Shown here piece by piece: positions 47,516-64,000 of a DNA stretch of 64,000 bases (positions are counted from its first letter, which is position 1; each line of letters opens with the position of its first letter). The DNA is taken from positions 62,001 through 126,000 of the forward strand of contig NZ_QLLK01000010.1 of NCBI RefSeq assembly GCF_003259505.1. Direction: 5' to 3'. Source of the DNA: Algoriphagus yeomjeoni (GTDB taxonomy: Bacteria; Bacteroidota; Bacteroidia; Cytophagales; Cyclobacteriaceae). Below the pieces are notes generated by a model. The model ran no database searches. It had not been told where the DNA came from and saw only the letters and a list, made by a program, of their open reading frames with translations. Position numbers and translations under genes: made by a program.

Positions 47516-47640
47516 TGTTTTTAACTATCTAAGAATATTTCGAGCCAGTATGATTATAAAATTGAGCAAAAGCAAAAACCACTTACTCCTACAAGGATTG
47601 TTCTATTAGAGTTTCAATTATCCCCTCTAAAAATCACCTT

Positions 47641-47683: not shown

Positions 47684-47742
47684 ATCATTAAATTGATGTT
47701 TCTCTACTGATTAGTGTCATAAACGCGTCAAGTTTATAGATT

Positions 47743-49722
47743 TCAACCCCTAATAATCAAATGTCCCAACTCGGGCGTATCCAACACCCTTTCCATTTCC
47801 ATTCGGATAATCTCTTCCACCTCACGCTTAATACTCCGGTAGTTCTCCTCCACATCCTCCTGTGAGATATCCCGCACTTTAGGGATTGGGCGATAGCTTT
47901 CTTCCTCCTGCTTCAAAGCTTTATGATCATTGATGATTTCGGAATGAAACGCTTTCAGTTCAATCTTCTGATCTGGAGTATCCGCTACCATTCCCACAAA
48001 TTCACCAGAAGAGAGTGACGATATCCTTGATGACGGAACCGCCTGATCCAGTTGCGTGGATTTACTTACCGATGTCTCTGAACTGTTGATCGAGATACTC
48101 TCCCGGTTTTGAATAATCCTACCAAAACGCTCTGAAAGTTGTTTGGCTGTATCACCCAAAACCTGACCACTGATGAAATTCCCCACGGTGTTCATAATCA
48201 CATCCGCCTGTTCCCTGCCATAATCCTTTCGAAGCTGGCTATAATCCTGTACCCCCAAACAGGTAGCTACCTTGTTGGATCTTGCCGTGGCAATCAGGTT
48301 ATCAATTCCGTTGAAATAAATCGTGGGAAATTCGTCAAACACCAGACTGGATTTCAGCTTCCCCTTCTGGTTGACCAATTTCACTATTCTTGAAATATAA
48401 AGCGATAAAACTGCCCCATGGACCTGCTGCTTTTGGGGATTGTTTCCCATGCAGATGATTTTAGGTTCATCAGGTTTATTCAGGTCAAGTGTAAATTCAC
48501 TCTCTGAAAGCACATAATACAGTTGGGGGGAAGATAGCCGTGCCATGGTAATCTTGGCACTTGCCACCTGACCTTCCAACTGATCAAATGCCTTTTTAAC
48601 CAAAGCAGAGACAAAAGGATTCACCAGAACTTCAATTTCCGGTTCGGTTCGGAGCACAGTAAACAGCTTTTCATATTCGACTTGCATTAACTCAATCACA
48701 TGGGGTAGCGTACAGTATTTTCCTTGCCTGTGCTTTTTGAGAAACCAGACAATAGCTGTAAGAAAATTAATCGGACTTTCTACGAAGAAGTCTCCCTGCT
48801 TTTTGATCCACTCCCTATTCAGTCCAAGCATAATAGTACGGGCTGCTTCGGAGGCATCTGTAATGTCCAACATGGTATCCGGCTCTAAGGGATTACACCG
48901 ATGGGTATGTGACAGGCGGTCAAAATTGATAGTATAGAATTTAGGCTTTATACGGTAGGCAGATAAATTCTTTTGAAGCGTATTGTAGGCTATTCGGGAG
49001 AGGTCATCGTATTTGAAGTCATAGACAAACATGGAAAACCCTTTACTGATGTGTTGGGTAATCACATGTCGGATCACAAAGTAACTTTTTCCAGAACCTG
49101 GCGTACCTGCCACCAATAATGCTCGGAAGGGATTGATGATATTGATCCATGATTTTCTGACCTTATCCTTCAGTCGGTATTGTGCAGGAAGATTAACCGA
49201 GTATTCATTTTCCAAGCAGCGCTCTTCCTGAGGAAATGTCTCGTTCAAATGATTAAACACCCCCTGATCAAATCGGTTCTTCAGCAACCGGCTGAGAAGG
49301 GCTCCTCCCCTCAGAATAAGAATGAACCCAAGACTGGTGATAGCTATGTAAATAATACTTACCGTATCCTCATTATAGGGTAGCAAAAAGACAAAAAAGC
49401 TGCCCGCATAAATTAACAAGCCACAGATCAGTGGCCAGAGTATCTGAGCTATTCTGAGTTTATCATCCTTCTTGCCTTTCGCTCCGATCAAGGAAATCAG
49501 CAAAAGGCCCAACGCAAAAGCTTTGGTAATATAGAATTCATTAAACACGCCCGTATCCCGAATATTGACCAGAAGTCTTTCTGAAACAGGATGCGTAAGT
49601 CCCCATTGATCGAAGGAATGATAACAGTAGTAATAGCAATGCAGACACAGCATTCCAATACTTGCCTTCCTGGTAAGATCAATGATCTTTCTTAACCCCT
49701 CCGTATTTTCTCCGGTTTGCAT
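47743..49722 (-). CDS. Type IV coupling protein (TraG/MobC-like, YWFCY domain)
   Basis: A 659-residue ATPase that links a relaxosome to a conjugation pore. The N-terminal part has the CYYYCY-type YWFCY motif (about 29-34) and membrane helices (about 66-80, 94-112, 122-138). Then Walker A GTPGSGKS at 206-213, Walker B SSLVFDEFPTIYF further on, and a TraG/TraD C-terminal domain. It is 8 bp downstream of the relaxase gene. No mating-pair-formation genes are in the window, so the element is probably mobilised by another conjugative element. Confidence 0.92.
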   Translation of the reverse strand: MQTGENTEGLRKIIDLTRKASIGMLCLHCYYYCYHSFDQWGLTHPVSERLLVNIRDTGVFNEFYITKAFALGLLLISLIGAKGKKDDKLRIAQILWPLICGLLIYAGSFFVFLLPYNEDTVSIIYIAITSLGFILILRGGALLSRLLKNRFDQGVFNHLNETFPQEERCLENEYSVNLPAQYRLKDKVRKSWINIINPFRALLVAGTPGSGKSYFVIRHVITQHISKGFSMFVYDFKYDDLSRIAYNTLQKNLSAYRIKPKFYTINFDRLSHTHRCNPLEPDTMLDITDASEAARTIMLGLNREWIKKQGDFFVESPINFLTAIVWFLKKHRQGKYCTLPHVIELMQVEYEKLFTVLRTEPEIEVLVNPFVSALVKKAFDQLEGQVASAKITMARLSSPQLYYVLSESEFTLDLNKPDEPKIICMGNNPQKQQVHGAVLSLYISRIVKLVNQKGKLKSSLVFDEFPTIYFNGIDNLIATARSNKVATCLGVQDYSQLRKDYGREQADVIMNTVGNFISGQVLGDTAKQLSERFGRIIQNRESISINSSETSVSKSTQLDQAVPSSRISSLSSGEFVGMVADTPDQKIELKAFHSEIINDHKALKQEEESYRPIPKVRDISQEDVEENYRSIKREVEEIIRMEMERVLDTPELGHLIIRG

Positions 49723-49730
49723 AGACTCGT

Positions 49731-50948
49731 TTATTGAATTCGCTTTTTGCGCCTTTTCTTTTTCTTTTGCCTCAGCTCATAAGGGGTTGGGCCTTCCGGT
49801 TGGTAAGAATCCAAAGAAATATCCAGACTGGGAATTCTTGTGTCTGGCTCACTTTGCTGCCCACTTATTCTTACCTCCTGCTGTATTTCCGGTCCATTGG
49901 GAAGAGCAGAGTCCATCGAAAATCTAACAGCAAGCGCATTAGCAGCTAATTCCTTACCCAAAGCCGAACCATTGAACACCGAACGACTGACATTGTCCAC
50001 ATAGGTTATCCCATACAATCTACCCTCTGAATTGACTCTGAATACCGGTCGGATGCCTTTACTTCTGAGTCTGGCTGTAAGGTCTTCCTGAGATTTACAT
50101 GCACCCAATGCATCGAGCACAGCTTCACGGACGGCATTTCTGAAAGGCTTACGGCTCTCTTTGTTTCGCACAAAACTTAATTCAAGCTTAGCCAAAGTAG
50201 GTTTACTGTAAATAGAACTGGCTTTGATGGGAATTCCGATTCTATTCCCCTCTGGATCGAGAACTGCATAGACAAGCCCCTTATTCTTAAACATTTCACT
50301 ATCCGGTTCACCCCGATAGGCACCTACATTAAATTGGCCCAAAACCACATTCAGTTCCGGTAAAGAAGTGAAACTATAGGTTCTAATTACCTCTGACACT
50401 ATATTGGAAATAGCTGCTTTTGTTTCCCGGGCTCCATAACTCGCTTTTTCCAAAGGCTTAAGCAGATTGACTTTTTGCTTTCGCTGCTCTTCCGCTTTTA
50501 CAAGATGGTATCGGCGCTCAATTTCCTTTCGGGTCTGTTCTGACAGCACCTTGCCTAGGTTATGCGTTTCAATCCGCTTTCCATCCCTTGAAATATTGGT
50601 AGTAACAACGTGCACATGGGGATGGGCTGAATCATAATGCTGATAAAGCAAATACGGCTGTTCCCCAAACCCGATTCCAATCAGGTAATCAGACGCAATC
50701 TGCTGCATTTTCAATTCGTCCAACTTATCCCTTGAGGAGAAGTTTAATGAAATATGAACTGCATTGGTTTTTGTTCGAGAATTTAGTTTCTGCAGCTGCT
50801 CAAAGTTTCTGATCTTCTCGGCCACTGAAAGTTCTTGGAATGCAAAACCTCCCATCTCTAACAAGCTTGCCTGTCCGGATGACACCTTCTGTTCATTATA
50901 TCGGATCACTCCTCCTATTGTCTTTCCAGTTATGATTTTTGCAACCAA
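49731..50948 (-). CDS. mobB: Relaxase/mobilisation nuclease (MobB-like, MobP type)
   Basis: A 405-residue relaxase. The metal-binding HUH-type motif HPHVHV is at 109-114, and the likely nucleophile tyrosine is Y17 in GVIRYNEQK. Another conserved segment, NAVHISLNFS, is at about 62-71. It nicks one strand at oriT and pilots it into the recipient (family knowledge). It overlaps no neighbour: it is 1 bp from mobA and 8 bp from the coupling protein gene, so the three are one operon. The basic C-terminal tail is RQKKKKRRKKR. Confidence 0.92.
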   Translation of the reverse strand: MVAKIITGKTIGGVIRYNEQKVSSGQASLLEMGGFAFQELSVAEKIRNFEQLQKLNSRTKTNAVHISLNFSSRDKLDELKMQQIASDYLIGIGFGEQPYLLYQHYDSAHPHVHVVTTNISRDGKRIETHNLGKVLSEQTRKEIERRYHLVKAEEQRKQKVNLLKPLEKASYGARETKAAISNIVSEVIRTYSFTSLPELNVVLGQFNVGAYRGEPDSEMFKNKGLVYAVLDPEGNRIGIPIKASSIYSKPTLAKLELSFVRNKESRKPFRNAVREAVLDALGACKSQEDLTARLRSKGIRPVFRVNSEGRLYGITYVDNVSRSVFNGSALGKELAANALAVRFSMDSALPNGPEIQQEVRISGQQSEPDTRIPSLDISLDSYQPEGPTPYELRQKKKKRRKKRIQ

Positions 50949-50949
50949 C

Positions 50950-51336
50950 TTATTTGATCCTTTTTAACCCTTCAATCAAAGCATAGACTTCGCCTATCTT
51001 ACGTTTGGTAAGCTCCAGGTGTGGAAGCAATTCGGCAACAAAAAACTTTCTCTCTTCAGGCTCAGCCTTCATATGAAAATAGTGTGTAATCTGGTTGATA
51101 TTCACTCCGATTTTGTTGAGCTCATTCCTAAGTATACCTAACTCATTTTGGACTTGATCAAAGGACTCATTCCTAGAATTTATAGTCAGCCTTCTTTTAA
51201 AAAGCATTGCCCTGACCAACTCACTTATTGTCTGGCAATACGCACTTTTTTTCAAAAGGCCTTCCAACTTTTCAACCTCTTCTGACTTAAATCGAATAGT
51301 CTTTCTTACCGGATAGTGAACCGTTCGTTTCTTCAT
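50950..51336 (-). CDS. mobA: Relaxosome accessory protein (MobA/MobC-like, ribbon-helix-helix)
   Basis: A 128-residue basic protein. The N-terminal RKTIRFKSEEVEKLEGLLKKS fits a ribbon-helix-helix DNA-binding domain, and the C-terminal half (LRNELNKIGVNINQITHYFH) is typical of mobilisation accessory proteins that help the relaxase at oriT. The likely oriT is immediately upstream. Confidence 0.88.
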   Translation of the reverse strand: MKKRTVHYPVRKTIRFKSEEVEKLEGLLKKSAYCQTISELVRAMLFKRRLTINSRNESFDQVQNELGILRNELNKIGVNINQITHYFHMKAEPEERKFFVAELLPHLELTKRKIGEVYALIEGLKRIK

Positions 51337-51500
51337 GAGACACTCATTTAAAATGCGACTTCGGAGTATTTTATCACCACTGCAACTCCGGCAGCTGTGG
51401 GCAAGATCGGATTGGCGTCAGACAATCCTACATCTTGCTCATTGCCAACACGCAATGCATACTACTATCAGCAGGATAGCATTTGATTGTAGATGGAGAA
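51337..51500. other. Probable origin of transfer (oriT)
   Basis: Directly upstream of mobA lies a strong hairpin: GCAAGAT-c-GGATTG (51401-51414) pairs with CAATCC-tac-ATCTTGC (51423-51438) around an 8-nt loop. CTATC/GATAG with a 5-nt loop follows (about 51465-51479). Position and structure fit an oriT with relaxosome sites; the nick site cannot be fixed by eye. Confidence 0.5.
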
Positions 51501-51988: not shown

Positions 51989-53362
51989 TTAAAAATTCTC
52001 CTTACTGCAAACTGCAAATTTTTTCTTATCCCCTTCAATGATTTTGTAGGTCAAACTCAAACTACTACAAAAGCTCTCCATAATTTCAAAATCCTCCTTT
52101 CTATTAATATCATCAAAAATATAAACACTATCGAGTGACCTAAAAAGAGAAATATGATTTAAAATCCCACTTCTTAAATCCCCAGGGGGGCCATCGACTA
52201 AAACAAAGTCATATTTTTTCTTTATTAGAACTGATTCTACCTGTTCAACTTTATACCACCCATTTTCTATCGGTGCTAGAAGACAATGATGTCGTTCTGA
52301 CCTTTGCGTGCAAAATTCAATATTATGCTCAATACTGGTTACGTTATGATTCTTTAGAAGAGCCTCAGTACCCATTCCAGATCCAAATTCAAGAATAGCT
52401 AAGGGTTTTAGCGAAAGTTCATTAAGATAATTCAGAAGGGTCTTTTCTATAGACCAAATACCCAATTTATTATTTTCAATAGCTCTTAGCCCTAGATCAG
52501 CAAAAAATGTATATAAGAGATCACTATCATAAATCTTTCTTACTTCATTGGCCTCTAATATTTTATTGATCCAGTTCTCAATCTGCGAGATTTCTACATC
52601 ATCTAAATACCCTCGGCGTAGCAAGGTAAGATGGAGGGACAATTCTTGTTTTGTAAATTTGAATTTAAAATTTTCAAGTTGCCTTCTTCTGATATTATCA
52701 CCTGAAATAGTGCGCTTACGACTTTCATGAATAGATAATTGTTCCTTGTGAACCCGATATTTCACAAGGAAGTCAGGTAAATTTTGAACCTTAAAAAATT
52801 GCGAAATTGAAACTATAAAGTTATACCCATCCGAGTATTGAAAAAAATTCTTGAATAGACAATGATGTTTATAAAGGAAAGGATTTCTAAAAAACCAAGT
52901 ATGCTGATGAATGTAATTATCTGCAAGTAAAAAAATTTTTACCATTTCAAAATCCAAGGGACGTATTACTTTATCTATTAAATCCCCTTCCTTATCAATA
53001 CTTAAATATTGGGATCCAATGCAAAAAGCATCTGAATTCTCCATAAAATCGTACTGAGTCTTCAATCTTTCCGGCAAAGAAATATCATCACCATCAGCCA
53101 GAGCTATATACCTTCCCTTTGCCTTACGAATTCCAAAATTTTTCGCAAAGTTACTTCCCATATTTTCTTCTAATCGAAAATAAAAAATCCTATCATCATT
53201 GAAACTATGAATTATATTCGTAGAACTATCACAAGATCCATCATCAATAATTAGGAGTTCAAAGTTTGAAAAGCTCTGAGAAATAATGCTTTCTATAGCT
53301 GAATCGAGGTAATTTTCGGCATTGAAGCAAGGCATTATAATGGAGATTTGTGGGCTTATCAT
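51989..53362 (-). CDS. Family 2 glycosyltransferase fused to a methyltransferase-like domain
   Basis: A 457-residue two-domain protein. Residues about 1-250 form a GT-A fold glycosyltransferase: IIMPCFNAENYL at the start, LLIIDDGS, and the metal-binding ALADGDDIS near 91-99. From about 325 the sequence switches to a Rossmann domain with LEFGSGMGTEALL (SAM-type glycine loop) and FVLVDGPPGDLRSG, a methyltransferase-like or related nucleotide-binding fold. The linker region is helical. It ends the RiPP-type operon, 53 bp after another glycosyltransferase. A role in glycosylating the precursor peptide is plausible, as GT2 enzymes do this in glycocins (inference). Confidence 0.85.
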   Translation of the reverse strand: MISPQISIIMPCFNAENYLDSAIESIISQSFSNFELLIIDDGSCDSSTNIIHSFNDDRIFYFRLEENMGSNFAKNFGIRKAKGRYIALADGDDISLPERLKTQYDFMENSDAFCIGSQYLSIDKEGDLIDKVIRPLDFEMVKIFLLADNYIHQHTWFFRNPFLYKHHCLFKNFFQYSDGYNFIVSISQFFKVQNLPDFLVKYRVHKEQLSIHESRKRTISGDNIRRRQLENFKFKFTKQELSLHLTLLRRGYLDDVEISQIENWINKILEANEVRKIYDSDLLYTFFADLGLRAIENNKLGIWSIEKTLLNYLNELSLKPLAILEFGSGMGTEALLKNHNVTSIEHNIEFCTQRSERHHCLLAPIENGWYKVEQVESVLIKKKYDFVLVDGPPGDLRSGILNHISLFRSLDSVYIFDDINRKEDFEIMESFCSSLSLTYKIIEGDKKKFAVCSKENF

Positions 53363-53415
53363 ATATAAGGAATTCGCATCAAAAAAGTAGAAAATTTTCT
53401 AATTATTCTTCTAAA

Positions 53416-54192
53416 TTATTTCCACATTTTAATTTCCTCCTTCAGCTCTTCTTTGGACATAGCTACAGACCTGTGAATTTCTGCCATCTTTCTATTGTCT
53501 TGATTGGGACTATGAAAAGTGCTGTTTACTCCACGCTCATGAGTCAGGTGATAAAGAATCCCCTCAACATGCTCATGTTTATGACACAAAATCTTCCAAC
53601 GGTTCAGCCGATCCCCGTCTTCCCTTCCCCAACCGTAAAACTTTTCGTTTTCCATTCCTGCTTCAATGTAGGTTTGCCTATGAGCCATAAATGCTCCCCC
53701 TACAGGATTGGGATTGTACAATGCCTTCATTTTACCCTGATGCATTTCAAGAATTCCAAGGTCTCGTGTCTGGATGTAGAGCTCCCGTAATGTTTCAGAA
53801 GTATCCAAAAAATTATCCTTATACGGAGTAACAAAATCAGCTTCCTTTTTTCTCAACAAATCAACTGATTTAACGATCTGTTCAACGGGAACTATGATAT
53901 CCGTGTCCCACACGATGATATACTCAGTGTCAACAGACTTAACTAGATGATTGATGTACCTAGTCCGATGAAAGATCGTATCCATATCTTCTATAAATAC
54001 ATAATTTACCTCTCGAGGCAATAACCTATGCAATAATCCGGTATTTCTTCCCGAAGCCTCTAATACACATACCTCAGTTTTAAAATTACTCATTATATGC
54101 TCAATGGTAACCAAGGTATTCTCCAGGCGATTAACTGTATCAATTCGCAAGGGAATCAAAAAAGTAAAATCATTTAAGTTTAACTTATCCAT
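53416..54192 (-). CDS. Galactosyltransferase-like (GT7/GT27-type) glycosyltransferase
   Basis: A 258-residue GT-A fold protein. FTFLIPLRID at the N-terminus, the DxD-type WDTDI, then NPVGGAFMAHRQTYIEAGMENEKFYGWGREDGD, in which WGREDGD is the acceptor-binding/catalytic block of GT7-C-type domains. It is 4 bp downstream of the LanC-like gene and so translationally linked to it. Proteins of this kind next to C39-ABC exporters in Bacteroidota suggest peptide modification; the sugar donor is unknown. Confidence 0.85.
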   Translation of the reverse strand: MDKLNLNDFTFLIPLRIDTVNRLENTLVTIEHIMSNFKTEVCVLEASGRNTGLLHRLLPREVNYVFIEDMDTIFHRTRYINHLVKSVDTEYIIVWDTDIIVPVEQIVKSVDLLRKKEADFVTPYKDNFLDTSETLRELYIQTRDLGILEMHQGKMKALYNPNPVGGAFMAHRQTYIEAGMENEKFYGWGREDGDRLNRWKILCHKHEHVEGILYHLTHERGVNSTFHSPNQDNRKMAEIHRSVAMSKEELKEEIKMWK

Positions 54193-54196
54193 AATA

Positions 54197-55285
54197 TTAA
54201 AGGTTTACTCTCATAGATTTTTCTTCTACTTCTAACATCTCAATTAAAGCCCAAGCTACTCCTGACAGACCGGAAGACAAGCCAATACTTTTTTTGAAAG
54301 GGTTATAAAAATCATTCCCACCCCAACATGCTGACTTGTTGATCTTATTAAGAACGTGCTCATCTGAGATCAAAATCGATTCAATATCCCCGTAAATCTT
54401 GTTTAGTTTCTCTCCTATAAGCCGCAAGCCGCTAGCACCATCTGTAACTGAAATATTAAGGTTTTTACACTCAGAGTTGAAAATCGTCTCCATATCAATG
54501 GATTCCTTTAAAAATAAGGCATGTTTTCTTAAACCAAGATGATTAATCTTCTTTAACACTGTTTCGACTCCCAGCAACAGATACAATCTATTGCTGTTTA
54601 GACGAGGGTAAAGAGCTAGCAAGTTTGGAAGGAGGAAGTCAAGAATCCGGTCCACTTTAAACACGTTTATCTCTAAACTTTTTGCCTTTGCCAGTAAAAT
54701 CAGTACAATTGGTAGATCCCAAAAGATATTGAATAATTGTGGCTCCCTGTCCTGAAATTTTTCTTCCTCAATCAATTGTCCCAGTTGATTGATTAGTCCT
54801 GCTGAGAGTTTTTGAAAAATATATGTATTTGACTGATGCCCTGATTTCAAGGAACTCTCCAGTCTATCAAGACTATAAATTAAGTATCCGAGGAGCCCAT
54901 TCCTTAAATTCGCTGATAGCTTGCCTTTTTGATCTTCCAAAAACTTAAAAATTCTGTCGTCTAGATCTCCCAAGGTATTGTCGAGATCCGCATCAACAAA
55001 GTCTAAATTAACCAAATAGCTGATACCATATGCAATACCAGCCAGACCATTTTCGAAATCTGCCGGAAGTTTTGCTTCACTTAGCTTTTCGAAAATCTCT
55101 TCTATCAGATTCTCAGCTTCTTCCAGAAAATCGGGGTTTCCGGTTTTCCTTGCAAAATGATAGAAGTAGATACTCAAACCCAGCTTCCCATTCAGCAACC
55201 CTAACTCATTTTCTCCTTTTGCAATTCCCATCAGACACCCGTTGATTTCCTGAAGTTTTTCCAATGCTTTTACCATATAATTCAT
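54197..55285 (-). CDS. LanC-like (lanthionine synthetase C-like) protein
   Basis: A 362-residue alpha/alpha-barrel protein. GLLNGKLGLSIYFYHFA and GLAGIAYGISYLV near the N-terminus and GLSSGLSGVAWALIEML at the C-terminus are LanC-type inner-helix repeats. The zinc site of true cyclases (a cysteine in a WCxG block and a CHG block) is not apparent: only SACWGG is present, and no CHG. There is also no LanB or LanM dehydratase in the window, so classic lanthionine formation looks unlikely. It may act as a scaffold or maturation factor for the modified peptide. It is tightly packed between the HlyD and glycosyltransferase genes (6 and 4 bp). Confidence 0.82.
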   Translation of the reverse strand: MNYMVKALEKLQEINGCLMGIAKGENELGLLNGKLGLSIYFYHFARKTGNPDFLEEAENLIEEIFEKLSEAKLPADFENGLAGIAYGISYLVNLDFVDADLDNTLGDLDDRIFKFLEDQKGKLSANLRNGLLGYLIYSLDRLESSLKSGHQSNTYIFQKLSAGLINQLGQLIEEEKFQDREPQLFNIFWDLPIVLILLAKAKSLEINVFKVDRILDFLLPNLLALYPRLNSNRLYLLLGVETVLKKINHLGLRKHALFLKESIDMETIFNSECKNLNISVTDGASGLRLIGEKLNKIYGDIESILISDEHVLNKINKSACWGGNDFYNPFKKSIGLSSGLSGVAWALIEMLEVEEKSMRVNL

Positions 55286-55291
55286 CTATTT

Positions 55292-56596
55292 TTAATATTC
55301 AGTCACTGATTTCAGTTTGAAAAACAGCCTTTCAGCTACACTCAGATCTTCTGTAATGATCTCGGCCGTACCCAGTAGTTCTTGCTTTAGTTGTATCTCC
55401 TTTCCATAGGAGGTTTTCGTCCCCTCTGGCAGGGAGCTATATACTACATAATTACCCTCTGCATCTGGGGAGACTGACATACTTCCTACTTCCCCCCTAA
55501 GGGTTCCAAATTGCTGAAAAGGAAAATTATCCAACTTGATCAATACTCGCTGTCCCATAAAGATTTTACCCGTATTTTGCGAAGAGACAATCATTTTACC
55601 CAGAAGTTCAGAACGCTGGTCAGGTAATATGGAAAAGACGTGCTCTCCGGACTGGACAAATTGATGCTCCCCCCAAACTGCCTGGTAGCTAACCTCACCA
55701 TCGGTGGAGGAAACCAACACATAATTACGCTCCCATTCCTTTACAGCCCGTTTCAAACCATGATAGGACTGGATCAGATTAATTAATGACCTAGACTCAT
55801 CCTGCTCTTTGATCACATGTGTACTTTTTAGGGTTTGCCCCGCATTAACCAAAGCTTCTCGAAGCTGAGAAATGGTTATCGCCATTCCATTGACATTTTC
55901 TTGTATCTGAAGGTATTCCATTTCTCGGCTCTCAAAGTCTTTGGCAGCAATTATACCACCTTCATAGAGTTTTTTGTTTCGATTAAAATCCTTCTCTACC
56001 AAGCTAACCTTCCTCTCCAGAATTTCTTTTTGAGCCAATTGGCTTGTAAGTCGTCCATGAATTTCCTGAATTGACTGCCGGTTCCCTTCGAGCTGAACCT
56101 GAGATGGCTGAAGCCTTTCTAGTAGTTTGAATTCCATGTAGCTTTGCTCAAACTCCACAAATGCCAGTTCAATCTCTCCCAAGACTACATCCGAAAGAGA
56201 ATCTATCGGAAAGAAAAACCTATTTCTCTCTCCAAATGGAACCTCATTCAGTAGCTTTTTCAGTAACATTACACTGCTAACATCAGAAGTGCTTTTAATA
56301 CTTGCCAATGGCTGACCGGCCTGAACTTTTTCTCCGTTGTCCACCCAAAGCCTATCGATCTGACCTGAAGTTCTGGCTATTATCTTTTCCGTTGGTTCTA
56401 CCGTGGTAACCATCACCCTAGACATGATAAAATCGGGATATTTGATGAAAAAGGACAAAAAAATCAAAACACAGGTTATTAAAAAAACCATAGTGATCCC
56501 CCACCGGATCAGCCATGCAGGAGGAGTTGTAATAATCTCCTGCACCTCTTCAGATCTGAGCTGCAGATTGTCAATATTATGGAGATTTTCAGGCAT
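55292..56596 (-). CDS. HlyD-family membrane-fusion (adaptor) protein of the peptide exporter
   Basis: A 434-residue type I secretion adaptor. One membrane helix (about 33-54), then biotinyl-lipoyl-like half-motif (IIARTSGQIDRLWVDNGEKVQAGQPL), a long coiled-coil hairpin (about 150-265), and the C-terminal beta domain (VLVSSTDGEVSYQAVWGEHQFV). It lies 2 bp after the C39-ABC gene, the standard pairing for exporters that cut the leader and export the peptide. A TolC-like outer-membrane channel is not in the window and would be supplied elsewhere. Confidence 0.92.
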   Translation of the reverse strand: MPENLHNIDNLQLRSEEVQEIITTPPAWLIRWGITMVFLITCVLIFLSFFIKYPDFIMSRVMVTTVEPTEKIIARTSGQIDRLWVDNGEKVQAGQPLASIKSTSDVSSVMLLKKLLNEVPFGERNRFFFPIDSLSDVVLGEIELAFVEFEQSYMEFKLLERLQPSQVQLEGNRQSIQEIHGRLTSQLAQKEILERKVSLVEKDFNRNKKLYEGGIIAAKDFESREMEYLQIQENVNGMAITISQLREALVNAGQTLKSTHVIKEQDESRSLINLIQSYHGLKRAVKEWERNYVLVSSTDGEVSYQAVWGEHQFVQSGEHVFSILPDQRSELLGKMIVSSQNTGKIFMGQRVLIKLDNFPFQQFGTLRGEVGSMSVSPDAEGNYVVYSSLPEGTKTSYGKEIQLKQELLGTAEIITEDLSVAERLFFKLKSVTEY

Positions 56597-56598
56597 TC

Positions 56599-58797
56599 CT
56601 AGTTTTCTCTAATTTTTCCCAGTTCCAATTGATTTTTGACCAGATTGTAATAAACTCCTTCTTGTAAAACCAATTCTTCATGGGATCCTGTCTCCTTAAT
56701 TCCCCCTTCATCCATTACGATGATCTGATCTGCATTTCTCACTGTACTTAGTCGGTGAGCGATGATGAAGACCGTCTTTCCTTTCATAAAATGGTTTAGG
56801 TTTTCCATTACAATCCGTTCGTTTTTAGCATCCAAGGCAGAGGTTGCTTCGTCAAAAAACAAGATCTCCGGATTTTTATATACAGCACGTGCAATAAACA
56901 AACGTTGTTTTTGCCCAGTACTGATTCCAACCCCTTCATTTCCTATTTTAGTGTTGAATCTTAAAGGAAGGGATTGTATAAAGTCATAGATATTGGCAGT
57001 TTTTGAAGCCATCACCAATCGATCGAGATCAACAACTTCCTCTCCCACTGCAATATTTGCAGCGATATTATCATTAAACACATAGCCTTCCTGCATCACA
57101 ACTCCACAATGGTCTCTCCAACTGCGGGGCGATATGGAATCAAAACTATGTTTACCATAATAGATTTCACCCTCATTTGGCTCATAAAATTTTAGAAGGA
57201 GTTTCATCAAGGTGGTTTTCCCACATCCACTAGCGCCCACTACTGCTGTAATTTTCTGTCTAGGAACAGTGAGACTTATTTCTTTGAGGACATTTTCCTC
57301 GGCTCCTAGATATCGAAAGCTGAGCTTACTAACATTTAAATCCTCGCCAGGCACAATCTTATAAACCAATTGCCTATTCCTATTTTCCTCGTCTTCTTTG
57401 TCGTGGATCTCATTAAGTCGCTCCAGGCTGATCTTGGCATCCTGATAGGTACGGACAAAAGTCACGAGGCCCATAATCGGGCCGTTGAGTTGGCCTATAA
57501 TATATTGCAGAGACAGCATCATCCCCAATGTAAGCTGACCCTCTATTACCAAAAGAGCAGAGGCAAAAGTGACTAAAATATTTTTTAGCTCATTGATAAC
57601 TGAAGATCCCACTCCTTGGGTCTGCTCTAGAGCCAGAGTCTTAATGGAAACATTAAAAAGACTGGCCTGGACAAATTCCCATTTCCAGCGTTTTTGGGTT
57701 TCTGCATTGTGCAACTTGATCTCCTGCATTCCATTGATCAGTTCGATCACGGTACTTTGTTCCTGGCTGAGCTGGGCAAAGCGCATGTAATCCAGTTCTT
57801 TCCTACGTTTTAGAAAGTAGAAAATCCATAGGATATAAACTATGCTTCCTCCCATAAATATCATGAAGATCATAGGGCTGTAATAAATCAATACTCCACC
57901 GAAAACAAAGAGGTTGAAAAAAGAAAAGAAGGTATTCAATGCCGTACCAGTAAGCAAGTTTTCTATACGCCTATGATCCCCAATCCGCTGCATAATATCC
58001 CCAGTCATCCTTGTGTCAAAGAAGGAAATAGGCAAATTCATCAGCTTGATAAAAAAATCGGATACTAAGGAAATATTTACCCGGGTACTAAGGTGGAGTA
58101 GGATCCAACTGCGGAATACCTCAACACTTGTCCGTCCTAAAAATAGCATTACCTGTGCTATCAAAACAAGGTAGATAAACCCGATATCCTGGTTTTGAAT
58201 CCCAATATCAACAATACTCTGAGTTAAAAATGGAAAAATCAATTGAAGCAAACTTCCTACAAGTAAACCAATACCCAGTTGTATAATCAGACTTTTATAC
58301 TTGAACAGATATTGGAAAAGGAAACCCAGTGAGCGTTTATCCACGCTTTCCCACTTCATTTTTTTGAACTGAGGGGTCGCTTCGAGTAGCAACGTTATTC
58401 CTTCCTTACTCTCATCCGAAGCATTGTTACCAATCCAACGCGAGATAAACTCTTCCTTTGTAAGCTGAATCAATCCATGAGCTGGGTCAGATAAATAGAC
58501 CTTGCCTTTATTAATTTTATATACTACCACAAAGTGATTTTTATCCCAGTGTACAATCAGGGGTAACTGAGCGTGCTCCAATCTTTTAAAATCCAACTTC
58601 GCTCCTAACGTCTTAAACCCAATTGCTTCTGCGGCATCGCTAAGTTTGAGAAGATTACTACCAGACCGTGTAGTTTCGGAAAGGCCCCTAATCTCCTGCA
58701 ATGATATCAGCTTTCCATAATACTTTGCTATAATGCGTAGGCATGTAGGACCGCAATCTTTCCCATCGGGCTGTTTGTAGAATGGAAACTTACTCAT
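56599..58797 (-). CDS. Peptidase-containing ABC exporter (C39-PCAT)
   Basis: A 732-residue exporter with three parts. The N-terminal C39 peptidase has Q9, C15 (DCGPTC), H88 (NHFVVVY) and D104 (LSDPAHG), a full catalytic set, which cuts after double-glycine leaders. The membrane domain has about six helices (about 165-435). The ATPase domain has VVGASGCGKTTL (Walker A), a diverged signature ISTGQKQRL and ILFFDEATSALD (Walker B). The precursor at 60143-60382 has just such a leader. It is 106 bp downstream of the propeller lipoprotein gene and starts a tightly packed run (HlyD, LanC-like, GT). Confidence 0.95.
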   Translation of the reverse strand: MSKFPFYKQPDGKDCGPTCLRIIAKYYGKLISLQEIRGLSETTRSGSNLLKLSDAAEAIGFKTLGAKLDFKRLEHAQLPLIVHWDKNHFVVVYKINKGKVYLSDPAHGLIQLTKEEFISRWIGNNASDESKEGITLLLEATPQFKKMKWESVDKRSLGFLFQYLFKYKSLIIQLGIGLLVGSLLQLIFPFLTQSIVDIGIQNQDIGFIYLVLIAQVMLFLGRTSVEVFRSWILLHLSTRVNISLVSDFFIKLMNLPISFFDTRMTGDIMQRIGDHRRIENLLTGTALNTFFSFFNLFVFGGVLIYYSPMIFMIFMGGSIVYILWIFYFLKRRKELDYMRFAQLSQEQSTVIELINGMQEIKLHNAETQKRWKWEFVQASLFNVSIKTLALEQTQGVGSSVINELKNILVTFASALLVIEGQLTLGMMLSLQYIIGQLNGPIMGLVTFVRTYQDAKISLERLNEIHDKEDEENRNRQLVYKIVPGEDLNVSKLSFRYLGAEENVLKEISLTVPRQKITAVVGASGCGKTTLMKLLLKFYEPNEGEIYYGKHSFDSISPRSWRDHCGVVMQEGYVFNDNIAANIAVGEEVVDLDRLVMASKTANIYDFIQSLPLRFNTKIGNEGVGISTGQKQRLFIARAVYKNPEILFFDEATSALDAKNERIVMENLNHFMKGKTVFIIAHRLSTVRNADQIIVMDEGGIKETGSHEELVLQEGVYYNLVKNQLELGKIREN

Positions 58798-58903
58798 CAG
58801 AAATTTTTATTAATCATATAGACAGCATCTATAAACAGCTTTGTGTATAATTGCACAAAATAATTATTACCAATAAAGAATTGAATTCCCTACAATTGAA
58901 CTA

Positions 58904-60076
58904 CTACTCTACTTTCAGCCCCACGCGAAACAGTCTGAAAAAATCCTGCTCCACTTCCTTGTTTGGTGTTTCCAGCATCCAAAGTTCACCGTTGCGATAT
59001 AACATACTTTGAGCCTCTAAACCATCAGGAACAATATCATTTACTAAATTCCCGAGTGAATCGAGAATAGCGAGATGTACAGGATATTTCTCAGCCATTC
59101 TGGCATTGAAATCAATAGTTTCCTCTTCGGATTTATTTGCTATTCGAATTTCTATATCTTCAGGGCTGTAGCCTTGAGTATATGCAACCAAAAAACACCC
59201 ATCAACCTCCTTTATGTTTAATATTCTACCTGTAGTCACTATGCTTACAAAGAAAAAATTTAGGTCTCTTGAATACTTATCCATTCCTTCAAAGTAGCGG
59301 TATTCCGGAAGATCAAGTGCAATACTGGAAAGTAGAGAGTAAGGTGGATTGGTATCGAAAACATAGATTACTGGCTCCAATCCAAATGCCGCATAGATCT
59401 TATCATCAGAAATGCTATACATAGGAGCCCAAGAGTTTGGATAAAAGTATTTTCCATTTCTGTAAACACTACTTTCTGGAAATTGGGCAAACGATTCTTG
59501 CTGGCCTGTAGTTGGGTACCACCACTTCAATAAATACATTTCCTCATAAATCTCCTTATCCGAATATCCCAAGTTTCCTGGAAGATCCTGATTCACATGT
59601 AAATACCGATCACCAAATTTTTCAATACCCTGTCCCATACCTATTGGTCCAGAATTTAAAGGTTGGAAATCAACTGCCTTAAATTGAGAGATGAGATTTC
59701 CATCAAAATCATAGGTTGTAAAGCCTTTAGAGCCAAAAACCAACATCTGATTTTCACCTAACAACCTTATTGAACTCATCAATTTTCCATAACCATAAGG
59801 TACATCCCCAAGTTTGGAAAATGAATTGATGATTGACCCATTGAAATTTGCTAATACAATAATCTGTGAAGTATTTCCATCACCTCCATCAAATACAACA
59901 GTTTTAGACACCGGATCTAAATCATGTACTTTAAATTTACCCACATAATTAATTTGAATACTGTCCCGCTTTTCTAAAGTAATCTTTGAATTAGGCTCTA
60001 AAGAAGTGGTCTTGCTTGTGGGATCACATGAAATTAAAAGTAGGAAAAGGAACAATAAAACAGCTGAGTTTCTCAT
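58904..60076 (-). CDS. Six-bladed beta-propeller lipoprotein (TolB-like/DUF4221-like)
   Basis: A 390-residue lipoprotein (Cys17 in LLLISC). Repeated segments such as GNTSQIIVLANFNGSIINSF, LVFGSKGFTTYDFDGNLIS and FDTNPPYSLLSSIALD fit a six-bladed propeller. Such proteins are regular members of Bacteroidota peptide clusters; a role in immunity, surface docking or peptide handling is possible. It is directly downstream of the precursor (66 bp), the position often taken by an immunity gene (inference). Confidence 0.75.
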   Translation of the reverse strand: MRNSAVLLFLFLLLISCDPTSKTTSLEPNSKITLEKRDSIQINYVGKFKVHDLDPVSKTVVFDGGDGNTSQIIVLANFNGSIINSFSKLGDVPYGYGKLMSSIRLLGENQMLVFGSKGFTTYDFDGNLISQFKAVDFQPLNSGPIGMGQGIEKFGDRYLHVNQDLPGNLGYSDKEIYEEMYLLKWWYPTTGQQESFAQFPESSVYRNGKYFYPNSWAPMYSISDDKIYAAFGLEPVIYVFDTNPPYSLLSSIALDLPEYRYFEGMDKYSRDLNFFFVSIVTTGRILNIKEVDGCFLVAYTQGYSPEDIEIRIANKSEEETIDFNARMAEKYPVHLAILDSLGNLVNDIVPDGLEAQSMLYRNGELWMLETPNKEVEQDFFRLFRVGLKVE

Positions 60077-60142
60077 GATGTAAATGAAATATGGAAAATT
60101 GAGTTAAAAGGCTGCCTATTTATAGGCAGCCTAATATTGAAT

Positions 60143-60382
60143 TTAACTACCACAATAGGAAGTAGTACTACATTGATCACAACACCAATATGTACCTGGC
60201 CAGGCCTCAGCATGTGCTTTTGCATCGCTCATTGTAAGGTCGCATATTGGTGGGAGGTTACCGTAGCCGCTCCATCCACAAGCAGAACATCCACCTGACC
60301 CCCCATAAATCATAGCCAATTGACTTCTTTCAAGGACTTCATCTGAGAGAAGATTTAATTTACCTAAACTCAACTTTTTCAT
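60143..60382 (-). CDS. RiPP precursor peptide with double-glycine leader and seven-cysteine core
   Basis: A 79-residue peptide. The leader (1-28) reads MKKLSLGKLNLLSDEVLERS then QLAMIYGG, a Bacteroidota double-glycine leader of the kind cut by C39 exporters. The core (29-79) has seven cysteines at 32, 35, 47, 67, 68, 71 and 77, plus many Ser, Thr, Trp and Tyr. An odd number of cysteines leaves one over if the rest form three disulfides. It lies among a C39-ABC exporter, three glycosyltransferase-type proteins, a LanC-like protein and an oxidoreductase. No radical-SAM enzyme is in the window, although close leader relatives are often grouped with rSAM-modified peptides. Confidence 0.88.
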   Translation of the reverse strand: MKKLSLGKLNLLSDEVLERSQLAMIYGGSGGCSACGWSGYGNLPPICDLTMSDAKAHAEAWPGTYWCCDQCSTTSYCGS

Positions 60383-60509
60383 AATTCAGTTATTTAAAAT
60401 TTATTTATTTTCCCAGTCATTTAAGAGTGCCTAGGCATACACCCATTCATCGCGATAGAATTTCTTTATCAATCCATTAGTGATACTGAATCAAATTATT
60501 TTTCCATTA

Positions 60510-61316
60510 TTAGTTTTTTACAGGATGATATAATTTATTTGAAACATTGCCTACTTCATCATAAACAGGTCTAAACCTTAAAGAACCCTTATATAGCCTG
60601 TAGTCATCATCTCTTTCTTCTATATAAAACCTATTTTCAAATCCAGGAGCAACAAATTCCCCCATTCCTCCAAAATCAAAAATTTCAAGCTCTGCCTGAT
60701 AAATCAAAGAAGGAAATAAAACTTCGTGGTGTCCACACCATTTGTTTTGAAGGGCTTTATGAATTAATTGCAGCGCCTCATTAGATATCCGATAGATAGG
60801 ATTAAAAGATCTTATTCGTTCTTCAAATGGGATTACTTTATATGGATGAGCCAGCGTATCCCACCAAGGCCAATTTGGAACAATAGGAGCTTTTTGAATA
60901 TGCGAACTGATAAAATCAGCAGAAACTTCTGTAAAACAAGAGAATAAATTACTCCAATCTCCTGAGAAACGTACGTCATCTTCTATGCACCAGTAATAAT
61001 CATAATCCGGGTATTCCTGATAAAATTTTAGAAGAGGAAAATGGTTATTTCCAGGAACCAAACTAAATCCTATTGGGAAATAATTAAGCTCAAAAAGTAT
61101 TTCATTTGTAAATGTGAAATGCGATTCGTTTTTCACAAATTCAGGAACTTCAAAACTTTTCTTGTGATAAAGAAGATAAAGATCTCCAAAGGATTGAGCC
61201 TCAAAAGTTAATTTCTTAAATGGTTCAATAAGACTAGGTGTTGTCTTCTGAGTTAAATACAAAAATACTTGCTTGTTCATCTTTCCTTTTAAATAAAATT
61301 TAGTGGCCTTAAACAA
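60510..61316 (-). CDS. Glycosyltransferase-like protein of the RiPP cluster
   Basis: A 268-residue protein. Its frame opens MFKATKFYLKGKMNKQVFLY; the better start may be the Met at residue 13. DYYWCIEDDVRFSGDW (about 105-120) has an acidic EDD(V) motif like the metal site of GT-A enzymes, and WCGHHEVLFPSLIYQ lies further on. This resembles DUF3405-like nucleotide-diphospho-sugar transferases, but the match is by pattern only. It lies immediately upstream of the precursor gene (127 bp) and 23 bp after the VKOR fusion. Confidence 0.7.
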   Translation of the reverse strand: MFKATKFYLKGKMNKQVFLYLTQKTTPSLIEPFKKLTFEAQSFGDLYLLYHKKSFEVPEFVKNESHFTFTNEILFELNYFPIGFSLVPGNNHFPLLKFYQEYPDYDYYWCIEDDVRFSGDWSNLFSCFTEVSADFISSHIQKAPIVPNWPWWDTLAHPYKVIPFEERIRSFNPIYRISNEALQLIHKALQNKWCGHHEVLFPSLIYQAELEIFDFGGMGEFVAPGFENRFYIEERDDDYRLYKGSLRFRPVYDEVGNVSNKLYHPVKN

Positions 61317-61339
61317 ATGATCAACTTAATTCACGTCGT

Positions 61340-62902
61340 TCACACCAAAACATAGTGTAAATCTTCAACTTTATACCCCTTAGGTAACTCATAGCCATCA
61401 ATGAACAAAGTTGGTGTATAAGAGATGTCCTCCTTAACACACCATTCTTCCATAGCCTTTAATTTTTCTTCTTGTTGCATCAGCTCGCCATTCATCGGAT
61501 ATTTGGCAGCAAATAAACTATAATCTTTCTTCTCAGCTCCGTACCAATCATCTAAAGCTTGGTGCATAAGTTTTGAATCACCTTTATCTTTTATAGCTAG
61601 TAAATGCCGAATTGTTCTTTCTTTTTGATCGTCACCATTACCTGGAACAAAAAGAATTTGAAGGTCTATATTCCCCTTTGCAAAAAGGTTTTCCAATACC
61701 GGATGTGCTCGGGCACAAGGACCACAATAAGGATTGCATACTTTTAAGACTTGGTATTTCGATTTTTCACCCTTCATCACTATCCCCAAACCTTGAGGCT
61801 CATTCTTCATTTTTTTAGATCGGGAAAGAGATAATTCAAATAACTCCTTATTGCTTTTTAGCTTTGCAAGCTGTCTTTTGGATTTATAGATTTCATCTTG
61901 GATTCCAAGCAAAGGCTTGATGAAAATCCCTCCCAAGATCACTCCTGTGAAAAGAAACAGAAACAAAAGGACTACACTACCATCAATACCACCAGACCAA
62001 AATGCTTCTCCACCTGTTGCCATAACCTCCATTACTAATACTCCTTGGATCAGCAAACAGAACCTGCACCACTTCTTGAGTACTTTAGTCTGATAATAGA
62101 AGGAGTAGATTACTACCGGAATGGTTAGAGCACTAAGCCATGCAAGGAATGTAATGTATGAGAAGGATAAGCCTACAAGCAAACCCGCCCCTGTAAAGAA
62201 ATAGGCGAATGCTACCAGACTGGGGTTGATCTGTCCATCCAGCAGTTGAAAGGACTTTGAATCCAGTACGGAATTGCAATCCACATTTTTTCCGCTGGAA
62301 CACAGGTTTTGAAGGATAGGATTATGCTTATCCTGCTGATACCATAGTAGGACACCCGAAATGGACAATCCCAGTAGTTTAAGAACAAAATAGAATAGAT
62401 GTAATCCTGAAATCCCAATTTCAATTACTCTAAGTCCAAGCCAAAACAGAAAGCTAGCTCCACAAATTATTGCTATACCTTGGATGATCCTCTGATCCCG
62501 AATCTTTTGGTTGATTTCCGGTTCTGCCGCATCTTCCCCTGCTTCTACCATTAAACTCACACCTGTCCAACTCTTTAAGAAATCCAGCCGGGATACGTCC
62601 TTTTGCTTCCCTTTTTCATCAAATAGGGATACTGAATTTTCAGAAACAGCCGTGATCACATTAAAATAGCTGCCATTGGGCAGCGATACCTGCACTATTC
62701 CCGGTAGAGGAAAGTCATCCAACCGATCCGGTCCAAGCTTGACTGCCATAGATCTAACTCCATAATCCTCTAGAGTGTCTGATATACCAAGTAAGCTGGA
62801 ATATTGGGGATGGGTAAAAATTTTTTCTTTAAGGTATTTGCCAGTATAAGGCACCTTAAGTGATTCCAGTAATCTCTTGCAAATGACTAAACAGTTATCC
62901 AT
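61340..62902 (-). CDS. C39-like/VKOR/thioredoxin fusion (disulfide-forming membrane enzyme)
   Basis: A 520-residue protein with three parts. The N-terminal 130 residues resemble a C39 peptidase domain (FPLPGIVQVSLPNGSYFNVI). A VKOR domain follows with about five membrane helices, the loop cysteines in CSSGKNVDC and the active pair CRFC. A C-terminal thioredoxin/DsbA-like domain has NPYCGPC. VKOR-thioredoxin proteins oxidise cysteines to disulfides, which fits a cysteine-rich exported peptide. It is the first gene of the minus-strand cluster, divergent from the XRE regulator (138 bp). Confidence 0.9.
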   Translation of the reverse strand: MDNCLVICKRLLESLKVPYTGKYLKEKIFTHPQYSSLLGISDTLEDYGVRSMAVKLGPDRLDDFPLPGIVQVSLPNGSYFNVITAVSENSVSLFDEKGKQKDVSRLDFLKSWTGVSLMVEAGEDAAEPEINQKIRDQRIIQGIAIICGASFLFWLGLRVIEIGISGLHLFYFVLKLLGLSISGVLLWYQQDKHNPILQNLCSSGKNVDCNSVLDSKSFQLLDGQINPSLVAFAYFFTGAGLLVGLSFSYITFLAWLSALTIPVVIYSFYYQTKVLKKWCRFCLLIQGVLVMEVMATGGEAFWSGGIDGSVVLLFLFLFTGVILGGIFIKPLLGIQDEIYKSKRQLAKLKSNKELFELSLSRSKKMKNEPQGLGIVMKGEKSKYQVLKVCNPYCGPCARAHPVLENLFAKGNIDLQILFVPGNGDDQKERTIRHLLAIKDKGDSKLMHQALDDWYGAEKKDYSLFAAKYPMNGELMQQEEKLKAMEEWCVKEDISYTPTLFIDGYELPKGYKVEDLHYVLV

Positions 62903-62991
62903 TGACTAGCAATAAAAACTTCACCTAAAATTTTGATATTTAAAATCATTCAATAAATTTGAGAATTACCTTTTTAAAAGACAATACCGTA

Positions 62992-63021
62992 TTTACTAAC
63001 ATTCAGTAACTTTTTACTAAC
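62992..63021. promoter_or_regulatory. Repeated TTACTAAC sites in the divergent promoter region
   Basis: TTACTAAC occurs at 62993-63000 and 63014-63021, 21 bp apart (two helical turns), with a related CAGTAAC (63004-63010) between. They lie 20-50 bp upstream of the XRE gene and about 90 bp from the VKOR-fusion gene. A binding site for the XRE regulator is the simplest reading. Confidence 0.5.
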
Positions 63022-63040
63022 CCAATTAACCTTTTAAGCC

Positions 63041-63292
63041 ATGAAAATAGGCCACAAATTAAAAAAAGCCAGAGAATCCAAAAGACTAAGCCAGCATGAA
63101 GTATCTGATCTTTTAGGCGTTTCACAAAAGACACTTTCTAATATAGAGAGTAACAAAAGTCAGCCATCTGTTGCACAACTTTCTGTGATGGGAGAGATTT
63201 ATGAGATAGATGTACTGAAATTATTAGCCGAAAACGGAATACATTTAACCCCCCCCTCCCACGCAATCATTCTGAAGCCGAGGAAGAATTAA
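63041..63292 (+). CDS. XRE-family transcriptional regulator with frameshifted tail
   Basis: An 83-residue helix-turn-helix protein: HKLKKARESKRLSQHEVSDLL, SQKTLSNIESNKSQPSVAQL. The start is ATG at 63041. After LAENGIHLTP the gene passes a C8 tract (63248-63255) and ends soon after. One more C (or two fewer) would instead read PPLPRNHSEAEEELRKLKNALERILGK to a stop at 63331-63333, a coiled-coil tail typical of these regulators. The regulator faces the RiPP cluster and probably controls it. Confidence 0.88.
   Translation: MKIGHKLKKARESKRLSQHEVSDLLGVSQKTLSNIESNKSQPSVAQLSVMGEIYEIDVLKLLAENGIHLTPPSHAIILKPRKN
63248..63255 (+). other. C8 homopolymer in the XRE regulator
   Basis: Eight C residues in a row at the point where the frame is lost. 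A possible slipped-strand switch, mutation or sequence error. Confidence 0.7.
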
Positions 63293-63333
63293 GGAAATTG
63301 AAGAATGCGCTGGAGAGAATTTTGGGGAAATAG

Positions 63334-63720: not shown

Positions 63721-64000
63721 TTAATCAAAATCCATCATCCCCTCTATCAGTTTCTGCTCACTTTCTTCATCCATGATGCTATCGATATAGGATTTAGTTG
63801 TTCGAATATCTGCATGACCAAGGGATTCTCCTACATATTCAATTGATGCATTTTTCCTGATTGCCATAGTTGCGAAGCTATGTCTAGCCCAATAAGTACT
63901 AATATCTTCTGTAAATCCAGCATGTTTGGCAAAGCGCTTCATGTGCTGATTAACTAACCTTGTGAAATTTTGCTTGGCTTTGAATTTTTCTTCCTCGTTC
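63721..64000 (-). CDS. Tyrosine recombinase/integrase, C-terminal part (runs off right edge)
   Basis: The visible 93 residues end an integrase: YWARHSFATMAI (arginine of the catalytic set; tyrosine replaces the usual first histidine, as is common in Bacteroidota), SLGHADIRTTKSYID with the LGH histidine and the nucleophile tyrosine. The frame is open to the window edge. It could be the integrase of the mobilisable island that carries the RiPP cluster, or belong to the next element. Confidence 0.88.
   Translation of the reverse strand, partial: NEEEKFKAKQNFTRLVNQHMKRFAKHAGFTEDISTYWARHSFATMAIRKNASIEYVGESLGHADIRTTKSYIDSIMDEESEQKLIEGMMDFD

Follow-up and report, generated by a model that had tools for sequence, protein, structure and literature searches.

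A LanC-like/GT7 core in a Bacteroidota peptide cluster predicted to make a secreted glycopeptide

What is made by a gene cluster in which a small Cys-rich peptide is accompanied by three glycosyltransferase (GT)-type enzymes, a LanC-like protein, a thiol oxidase and a peptide exporter? Such a cluster lies on the minus strand at 51989-62902 of the 64,000-nucleotide stretch of DNA analyzed here (the window; G000:C10:62001-126000 of a genome of 4.97 Mb in 30 contigs), whose proteins have their nearest named relatives in Algoriphagus. The initial annotation regarded it as a glycocin-like cluster on a mobilisable island. Our analysis suggests that the cluster probably makes a secreted, disulfide-bonded glycopeptide, a ribosomally synthesized and post-translationally modified peptide (RiPP), by means of a LanC-like/GT7 core in which an inactive LanC would present the precursor. 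A secreted glycopeptide RiPP system with this core, new as a variant, is the best-supported reading, and the sugar in it is one that we infer.

All the genes named in the annotation were found at their place and strand, and the set of precursor, GTs, LanC-like protein, C39-ABC exporter, HlyD-type protein, oxidoreductase and divergent XRE regulator is supported by Pfam. In the order of transcription, the minus-strand genes encode a C39-like/VKOR/thioredoxin protein, a DUF3405-type GT candidate, the precursor, a putative lipoprotein, the C39-ABC exporter, the HlyD-type protein, the LanC-like protein, GT7 and GT2. As annotated, no dehydratase domain (LanB or LanM) is present among the 10 cluster proteins (the genome elsewhere was not searched for LanB), and no radical S-adenosylmethionine (rSAM) maturase is found among them.

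The precursor gene (60143..60382, minus strand) encodes 79 aa, composed of a 28-aa Gly-Gly (GG) leader, MKKLSLGKLNLLSDEVLERSQLAMIYGG, and a 51-aa core with seven Cys (unmodified average mass, 5300.8 Da). By its leader the peptide passes as a member of TIGR04149, marginally (25.5 bits against a cut-off of 25), and it is the sole match to this model at E 1 across the whole genome. Ten relatives of the precursor are under the cut-off (six) or unmatched (four), while two in genome G016 pass. At E 0.01, the model matches 3 of the 18 genomes of the genus, the own genome included. A search of the protein database with the precursor gave six matches at E 0.001, counting the query itself.

The leaders are conserved and the cores are hypervariable. 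Mean pairwise identities among 25 precursors are 57% for leaders, 27% for cores and 24% for shuffled cores, the leader value being partly due to selection of these precursors by a leader pattern. Between 2 and 8 Cys are present in each of the 34 cores from loci with LanC-like or DUF3405-type genes, and the count is even for 28 cores (binomial p 1e-4, the cores not being independent); several cores, including that of the window, have a (Y/W)CCxxC motif close to their ends. The residue following GG should be noted. Among precursors selected with a leader pattern, it is Ser in 25/33 of two leader types at loci of the LanC-like/GT system and in 2/4 at L119/L120 (pooled, 27/37), against 0/8 at comparison loci, among which L005 and L006 carry a DUF3405-type gene. 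A spurious plus-strand open reading frame (ORF) at window 56403-56612, which passed the precursor pattern, was excluded from the core and Ser counts. Outside the pattern, the precursors of L024, L025 and L122 carry AG instead of GG, followed by Ser-Gly. The Ser residue may be a glycan anchor, or may simply belong to the cleavage site. At L070, L071, L073, L110 and L112, LanC-like or DUF3405-type genes are accompanied by precursors of another type, which combine a hydrophobic leader (VAMSVGLFNSFNVEAEGG-like) with Cys-rich cores; the three members tried gave no NCBIfam match. The product of the window gene is probably a GG-leadered, Cys-rich, exported peptide with disulfide bonds and glycosylation.

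The LanC-like protein (54197..55285, minus strand) matches LANC_like PF05147 with 31.1 bits (cut-off 23.2), as the annotation had it; its metal site, however, is lost. Because a phmmer search of the LanC-like protein against the PDB gave only apparent designed proteins, the positions of the zinc ligands (Cys, Cys and His) and the catalytic His were taken from a LanB-linked LanC that aligns to PDB 8byk and its His, Cys and Cys-His motifs. The alignment has 104 rows (the window protein, 74 database relatives and 29 locus sequences, some proteins being duplicated). Four rows lacking letters at the four columns (P0038, P0067, P0078 and L033) were set aside, and the proteins of L112 and L119 lie outside this test. 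All four LanB-linked LanCs (L029-L032, with a LanB-like gene within 2.2 kb) keep all four residues (HCCH), whereas none of the 96 other scoreable rows keeps two or more, and four of them keep the last His alone. The window protein reads W, L, T and D at these columns, with FWDLP and SNRLYLLLG in place of the zinc motifs. Both LanC-like proteins from Parabacteroides fail the test, too, and a section of PMC10352776 describes LanCs without the zinc motif in three Bacteroidales clusters (BGC3-5). Judged by its residues, the LanC-like protein is devoid of the cyclase metal site and is no cyclase. In three database proteins, one apparently that of L063 itself, the LanC-like domain is fused to a sulfotransferase.

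The LanC-like gene is accompanied by GT7 across genomes. Among 245 genomes of the family, the LanC-like protein is found in 18 at E 1e-10 and in 15 at E 1e-20. GT7 is found in 15 at E 1e-20, and 14 genomes are common to both against 0.9 expected (p ~1e-20, a nominal value because the genomes are related). In the unpaired genome G548 the LanC-like gene is broken; in the unpaired G494 the LanC-like protein is too distant for the threshold and adjoins GT7 (L112). GT7 lies no more than 1 kb away, in the same orientation, for 17 of 25 LanC-like genes (26 ORFs, since one of the genes is split in two). The proportion is 13/21 among those fetched for the LanC-like protein alone, the other four being the window, L007 (from the DUF3405 search), and L024 and L025 (from genomes matched by both queries). 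In 395 phylum-wide genomes, GT7 occurs in four (E 1e-10) and the LanC-like protein in eight (E 1e-6). LanC-like matches at E <=1e-50 are in three genomes, all among the four with GT7, and the five weaker matches are the four LanB-linked LanCs and L033. Twelve family genomes carry the DUF3405-type gene, and nine of these also have the LanC-like gene; in one of the nine, G533, it stands elsewhere (L109), with no peptide exporter in view.

The GT7-type enzyme (53416..54192, minus strand) was identified correctly in the annotation (PF02709, 26.4 bits; cut-off 23). Across 23 sequences, its DxD residues (D96 and D98) and GWGxED block reach at least 90% conservation, and the nearest PDB sequence is beta-1,4-galactosyltransferase 7 (E 0.027). 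The DUF3405-type GT candidate (60510..61280, minus strand; 256 aa; PF11885, 30.4 bits against a cut-off of 25), whose start is probably the ATG at 61280, has an EDD motif. Conservation of E100 and D102 is at least 90% across 18 sequences, and strand 94-100 runs into EDD in the AlphaFold model; comparison of its profile with the PDB gave nothing useful. The third enzyme (51989..53362, minus strand) is a GT2 (PF00535, 106 bits) with a fused C-terminal domain, which is methyltransferase-like by eye and contains FGSGxGT, SIEHD and VDGPPG motifs. This domain has nine homologs besides itself, eight with precomputed GT2 domains and the ninth 298 aa long. A model and a structure of glycocin S-glycosyltransferase exist in the NCBIfam and PDB libraries; the lists obtained for the GT2, which comprise 24 NCBIfam models at E 0.1 and 28 PDB sequences at E 0.01, contain no such entry.

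The membrane thiol oxidase (61340..62902, minus strand; PF03412 and PF07884, with a sub-threshold thioredoxin match) bears out the annotated VKOR/thioredoxin oxidoreductase, a description that was incomplete, since a degenerate C39-like domain is present at the N terminus. The VKOR and thioredoxin Cys residues (201, 209, 279, 282, 393 and 396) show at least 90% conservation across 13 sequences. In the C39-like domain, the catalytic His is replaced in all 13 and the Asp is kept in 12. The C39 peptidase ABC exporter (56599..58797, minus strand; 732 aa; PF03412, PF00664 and PF00005) has its triad of C15, H88 and D104 in 14 of 15 rows, the remaining row having no C39 part, and it is followed by the HlyD-type membrane fusion protein (55292..56596, minus strand; PF13437 (HlyD_3), and TIGR01843 at 102 bits, under the cut-off of 208.65). 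The C39 fold of the oxidase and the LanC fold appear to be retained without their usual catalysis. Since both have lost catalytic residues, they may be read as handles for the leader or the core.

The putative lipoprotein 3' of the precursor gene (58904..60076, minus strand; 390 aa) has a lipobox by eye and no Pfam match. A protein 48% identical to it stands 3' of a precursor in L062, and a weak profile match to DUF5128 relatives (probability 81%, 61 columns) suggests that it is perhaps of the 6-bladed beta-propeller type. It is a candidate partner or immunity factor. At L003, a related locus in Algoriphagus antarcticus, three precursors are each followed by a different larger protein (DUF5128 above the cut-off, DUF5128 below it and a redoxin-domain protein), which suggests cognate pairs.

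The enzymes encoded beside LanC-like genes are mostly glycan enzymes, and the set is swapped from locus to locus. They include GT2, a GT90 (L007), GT4 enzymes (L033 and L068), a GT10 fucosyltransferase (L075), a GT32-like enzyme (L119), STELLO-type GTs (L065 and L074), an FkbM methyltransferase (L070), a polysaccharide pyruvyl transferase (L062), DUF6625 (L024) and DUF707 (L061) proteins, and sulfotransferases (two in L076, one in L112, and one in L063 fused to the LanC-like protein). This accessory set looks like one for the building and capping of a glycan.

The search of Bacteroidota genomes that the annotation had proposed showed that the LanC-like/GT7 core recurs in the family, in other families and in a bacterium of the human gut, Parabacteroides distasonis. 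A similar core adjoins Cys-rich leader peptides in genomes of the same family (L060-L064 and L119) and also occurs in a second family of the phylum, with two genomes (L024 and L025); Flavobacterium daejeonense has LanC-like, GT7, GT90 and DUF3405-type genes. In P. distasonis, locus L122 (NZ_OY725766.1) encodes a VKOR protein, a 59-aa peptide with six Cys, a DUF4369/thioredoxin protein, the LanC-like protein and GT7, followed by a family-A GT, a C39-ABC exporter and HlyD. Locus L123 (NZ_OY725771.1) encodes a peptide, a propeller, a C39-domain protein, a thioredoxin protein, the LanC-like protein and GT7, with no adjoining exporter. These records, labelled plasmids 21 and 26, carry housekeeping genes by eye and may be chromosomal pieces. 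The distribution points to a peptide system that is widespread in the phylum and little studied. On the mobilisable plasmid pB3-10 of Rhizosphaericola mali (L124), a 580-aa protein with a GT7 domain has a neighbor whose LanC-like match, at 18.8 bits, stays below the threshold of 23.2, and there is no exporter in the stretch examined.

The cluster resembles those of the glycocins (sublancin, glycocin F and thermoglycocin) in having a Cys-rich precursor, a glycosyltransferase, a thiol-disulfide protein and a C39 exporter, and a section of PMC12457901 gives seven Cys for the thermoglycocin precursor, too. It differs from them in three GT-type enzymes, none of the glycocin type by the listed models, in the LanC-like partner and in Gram-negative export through HlyD. 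The glycocin-like label of the annotation was borne out in its logic, that is, a GG-leader Cys-rich precursor, a C39 exporter, a thiol oxidoreductase and GTs in one cluster, and not in membership, since no SunS-type peptide S-glycosyltransferase was found among the models and PDB sequences listed for the GT2. The many-enzyme set fits a built glycan better than a single sugar.

With the GG-leader rSAM systems of Bacteroidetes (TIGR04149/TIGR04148/TIGR04150/TIGR04157), the cluster shares the leader family (TIGR04149, marginally) and C39 export. In contrast to those systems, the cluster proteins include no rSAM enzyme, and the LanC-like/GT7 core, the VKOR-thioredoxin oxidase and other GTs are present instead. 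The GT4 enzymes at L033 (204 bits) and L112 (273 bits) are TIGR04157-like, both under the cut-off of 400. At L004, GT7-GT2 and DUF3405-type genes occur with a TIGR04148 rSAM and a TIGR04150 pseudo-rSAM protein, both above the cut-off, and the glycan enzymes are therefore shared with rSAM peptide clusters. Sections of PMC10352776 report areas with rSAM, LanC and S-glycosyltransferase genes in some strains of B. fragilis and P. distasonis, and PMC7268733 left 1392 LanC-like proteins without a class, some of which are neighbors of ABC transporters and proteases. The pairing with GT7 and the swapped glycan enzymes are unmentioned in the parts of these two papers that deal with zinc-less or unclassified LanC-like clusters. 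Among the papers listed by literature searches, no title or abstract opening describes a LanC-like/GT7 peptide system; overlap is possible with the 2021 study by Singh and Rao of glycocin clusters outside Firmicutes, which is cited in PMC9576775.

From the observed genes, conserved motifs, missing LanC metal site and C39 His, and linkage across genomes, the following route can be proposed. The precursor would be translated with its conserved GG leader, and GT7 and the two other GT-type enzymes would build a short glycan on the core in the cytosol; the acceptor may be the Ser that directly follows GG. The LanC-like protein, which has the fold of a cyclase and has lost the metal site, would hold the leader or the core for the glycosyltransferases. 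The C39-ABC exporter and HlyD would then cleave at GG and export the peptide, and disulfide formation would fall to the VKOR-thioredoxin oxidase, whose degenerate C39 domain perhaps anchors it to the leader. The putative lipoprotein encoded after the precursor may serve as a cognate partner or confer immunity. The substrate, the order of steps, the glycan, the docking roles and the biological role (competition or signalling) are all conjectural parts of this route.

Several observations weigh against this proposal. The sugar, the disulfides and the secreted product are predicted from genes, and the docking roles of the LanC-like and C39-like domains are read from lost residues; in 8/13 oxidase sequences, the C39-like domain has a Cys in the catalytic position or directly next to it. 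The Cys count of the window core is odd (seven). The Ser bias after GG may reflect a C39 preference or common descent, and among the precursors missed by the pattern, those of L112 and L123 have G after the cleavage site and that of L110 has C. GT7 is missing from the 1 kb around eight of the 25 LanC-like genes, namely those in L065 (at a contig end), L066, L067 (both genes), L068, L069, L073 and L075, and L033, which is outside the 25 as its LanC-like protein is below the script threshold, has the LanC-like protein, GT4 and exporter without GT7. The AlphaFold model of the DUF3405-type protein is modest (pTM, 0.73; mean pLDDT, 67.5). The GT2-methyltransferase fusion in the annotation holds as a conserved fused domain with motifs seen by eye; the C-terminal domain gave no Pfam match above cut-off and none of use in the PDB. 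The edge of L112 (1-1996) carries a LanB-like ORF (24% over 234 aa), which is >6 kb from the LanC-like and GT7 genes and on the opposite strand. The DUF3405-type gene also occurs away from peptide loci (L026, L027, L109 and L111). Side observations at these loci are that the relative in L027 (9330-10136) lies amid genes resembling phage structural genes by eye, and that the genome of L112 holds a separate LanB/LanC cluster (L113).

The annotation had named an unrelated polysaccharide locus as a possible source of the GT genes. This reading is rejected for GT7 and the LanC-like gene by their linkage to peptide export, GT7 pairing with the LanC-like gene and often with exporter genes, and is partly open for the DUF3405-type gene, for which the evidence is mixed. 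A related alternative is that the peptide is an ordinary disulfide bacteriocin like the bacteroidetocins, and that the GTs and the LanC-like protein modify a self-protective surface glycan or the protein encoded after the precursor. In the sections of PMC6671954 on the bacteroidetocins, a GG peptide with Cys, a thiol oxidoreductase and an ABC transporter with a double-glycine peptidase are found as in the window, in a four-gene set without a reported GT or LanC-like gene and with a different precursor. The occurrence of the DUF3405-type gene away from peptide loci is in line with this alternative, as is L005, with peptide, oxidase and exporter and no LanC-like/GT7 pair (L003 likewise in the stretch examined, which ends inside HlyD). 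We consider it unlikely, because the LanC-like gene lies <=100 bases from HlyD in 9/25 genes, GT7 is within 1 kb in the proportion given above, and the ORFs of the window locus, inspected by eye, include no recognisable flippase or polymerase gene, no dedicated search having been made.

Another possibility is that the LanC-like protein is a sugar-processing enzyme supplying or trimming the glycan and not a docking scaffold, the pathway being otherwise the one proposed. Alpha/alpha-barrel folds related to LanC act on sugars. Two database LanC-like entries are named glycoside hydrolase family protein, and the conserved W-D-L-P and N-R-L-Y motifs may form an active site. A section of PMC10352776 argues for the endoglucanase likeness of Bacteroidales LanCs near carbohydrate enzymes. 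The tight pairing with the GT and the sulfotransferase fusion suggest a shared substrate handle instead, and the enzyme role seems rather unlikely to us. That the LanC-like protein is a lanthipeptide cyclase acting together with a dehydratase from another locus, the GTs being of secondary importance, is very improbable. The PF05147 fold, Cys plus Ser/Thr in the core, and the LanB-like ORF of L112 agree with such a role, and LanKC cyclase domains are reported to be without the zinc residues as well. The presence of at most one of the four zinc and catalytic residues in each of the 96 rows, against all four in the LanB-linked LanCs, argues against it. Neither a dehydratase in the cluster nor the LanC zinc ligands expected of class I/II lanthipeptides are found, and a blast comparison revealed no LanB-like ORF at the GT-linked loci of the 25-gene set (the own genome was not searched for LanB).

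The glycopeptide proposal may extend further. Tentatively, and with more doubt than belief, the loci can be viewed as a distinct class of Bacteroidota RiPPs, in which hypervariable disulfide peptides would be decorated with glycans that resemble capsules and differ between loci (galactosyl-, fucosyl-, sulfated, methylated or pyruvylated). Swappable enzymes would make these glycans on the peptide around a core of GT7, a dead LanC as precursor handle and a degenerate C39 domain as handle for the disulfide oxidase, with a Ser-Gly anchor beside the cleavage site likened to the start of a proteoglycan chain. If the glycopeptide proposal is true, Bacteroidota, a gut species among them, secrete peptides with enzymatically built glycans, outside the glycocins of Firmicutes, and a part of the 'orphan' LanC-like proteins from genome mining is explained. 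The loci would also provide many candidate peptide-glycosylating enzymes and an example of inactive enzyme folds reused as precursor handles.

The mobilisable-island setting in the annotation is supported. A mobilisation module of a TraG/TraD-like coupling protein, a MobA/VirD2-type relaxase and MobC lies on the left (47743..51336, minus strand), and the C-terminal end of a tyrosine integrase lies on the right (63721..64000, minus strand), its gene starting beyond the window end (419 aa in full; L077 1721-2980; PF00589, 59 bits). About 150 bases past the integrase is the 3' half of a tRNA-Asn (L077 3143-3176; G000:C10:127143-127176), an intact copy of which is on contig C7; the half is likely an attachment remnant. 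The arrangement fits a mobilisable element inserted at the tRNA. The left end of the island was not found, and a comparison of window 46001-51400 with L077 2701-3900 gave no forward repeat of >=12 bases. A MacB/FtsX-type permease left of the mobilisation genes (window 44385-46745) is possibly the chromosomal flank.

The divergent XRE-family regulator (63041..63292, plus strand) matches HTH_3 PF01381. A scan of the window against Rfam at gathering cut-offs gave 0 matches, and promoter and terminator scans gave no excess over shuffled sequence. Directly 3' of the precursor stop, a perfect 9-bp inverted repeat, GGCTGCCTA TAAA TAGGCAGCC, followed by TTTT (60110..60131, minus strand), is a candidate attenuator or terminator; it is absent from the list of the terminator scan, which demands 5 T. 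The G+C content is 0.35-0.41 in the cluster and 0.40-0.44 in most of the window, 34-38 kb being low too.

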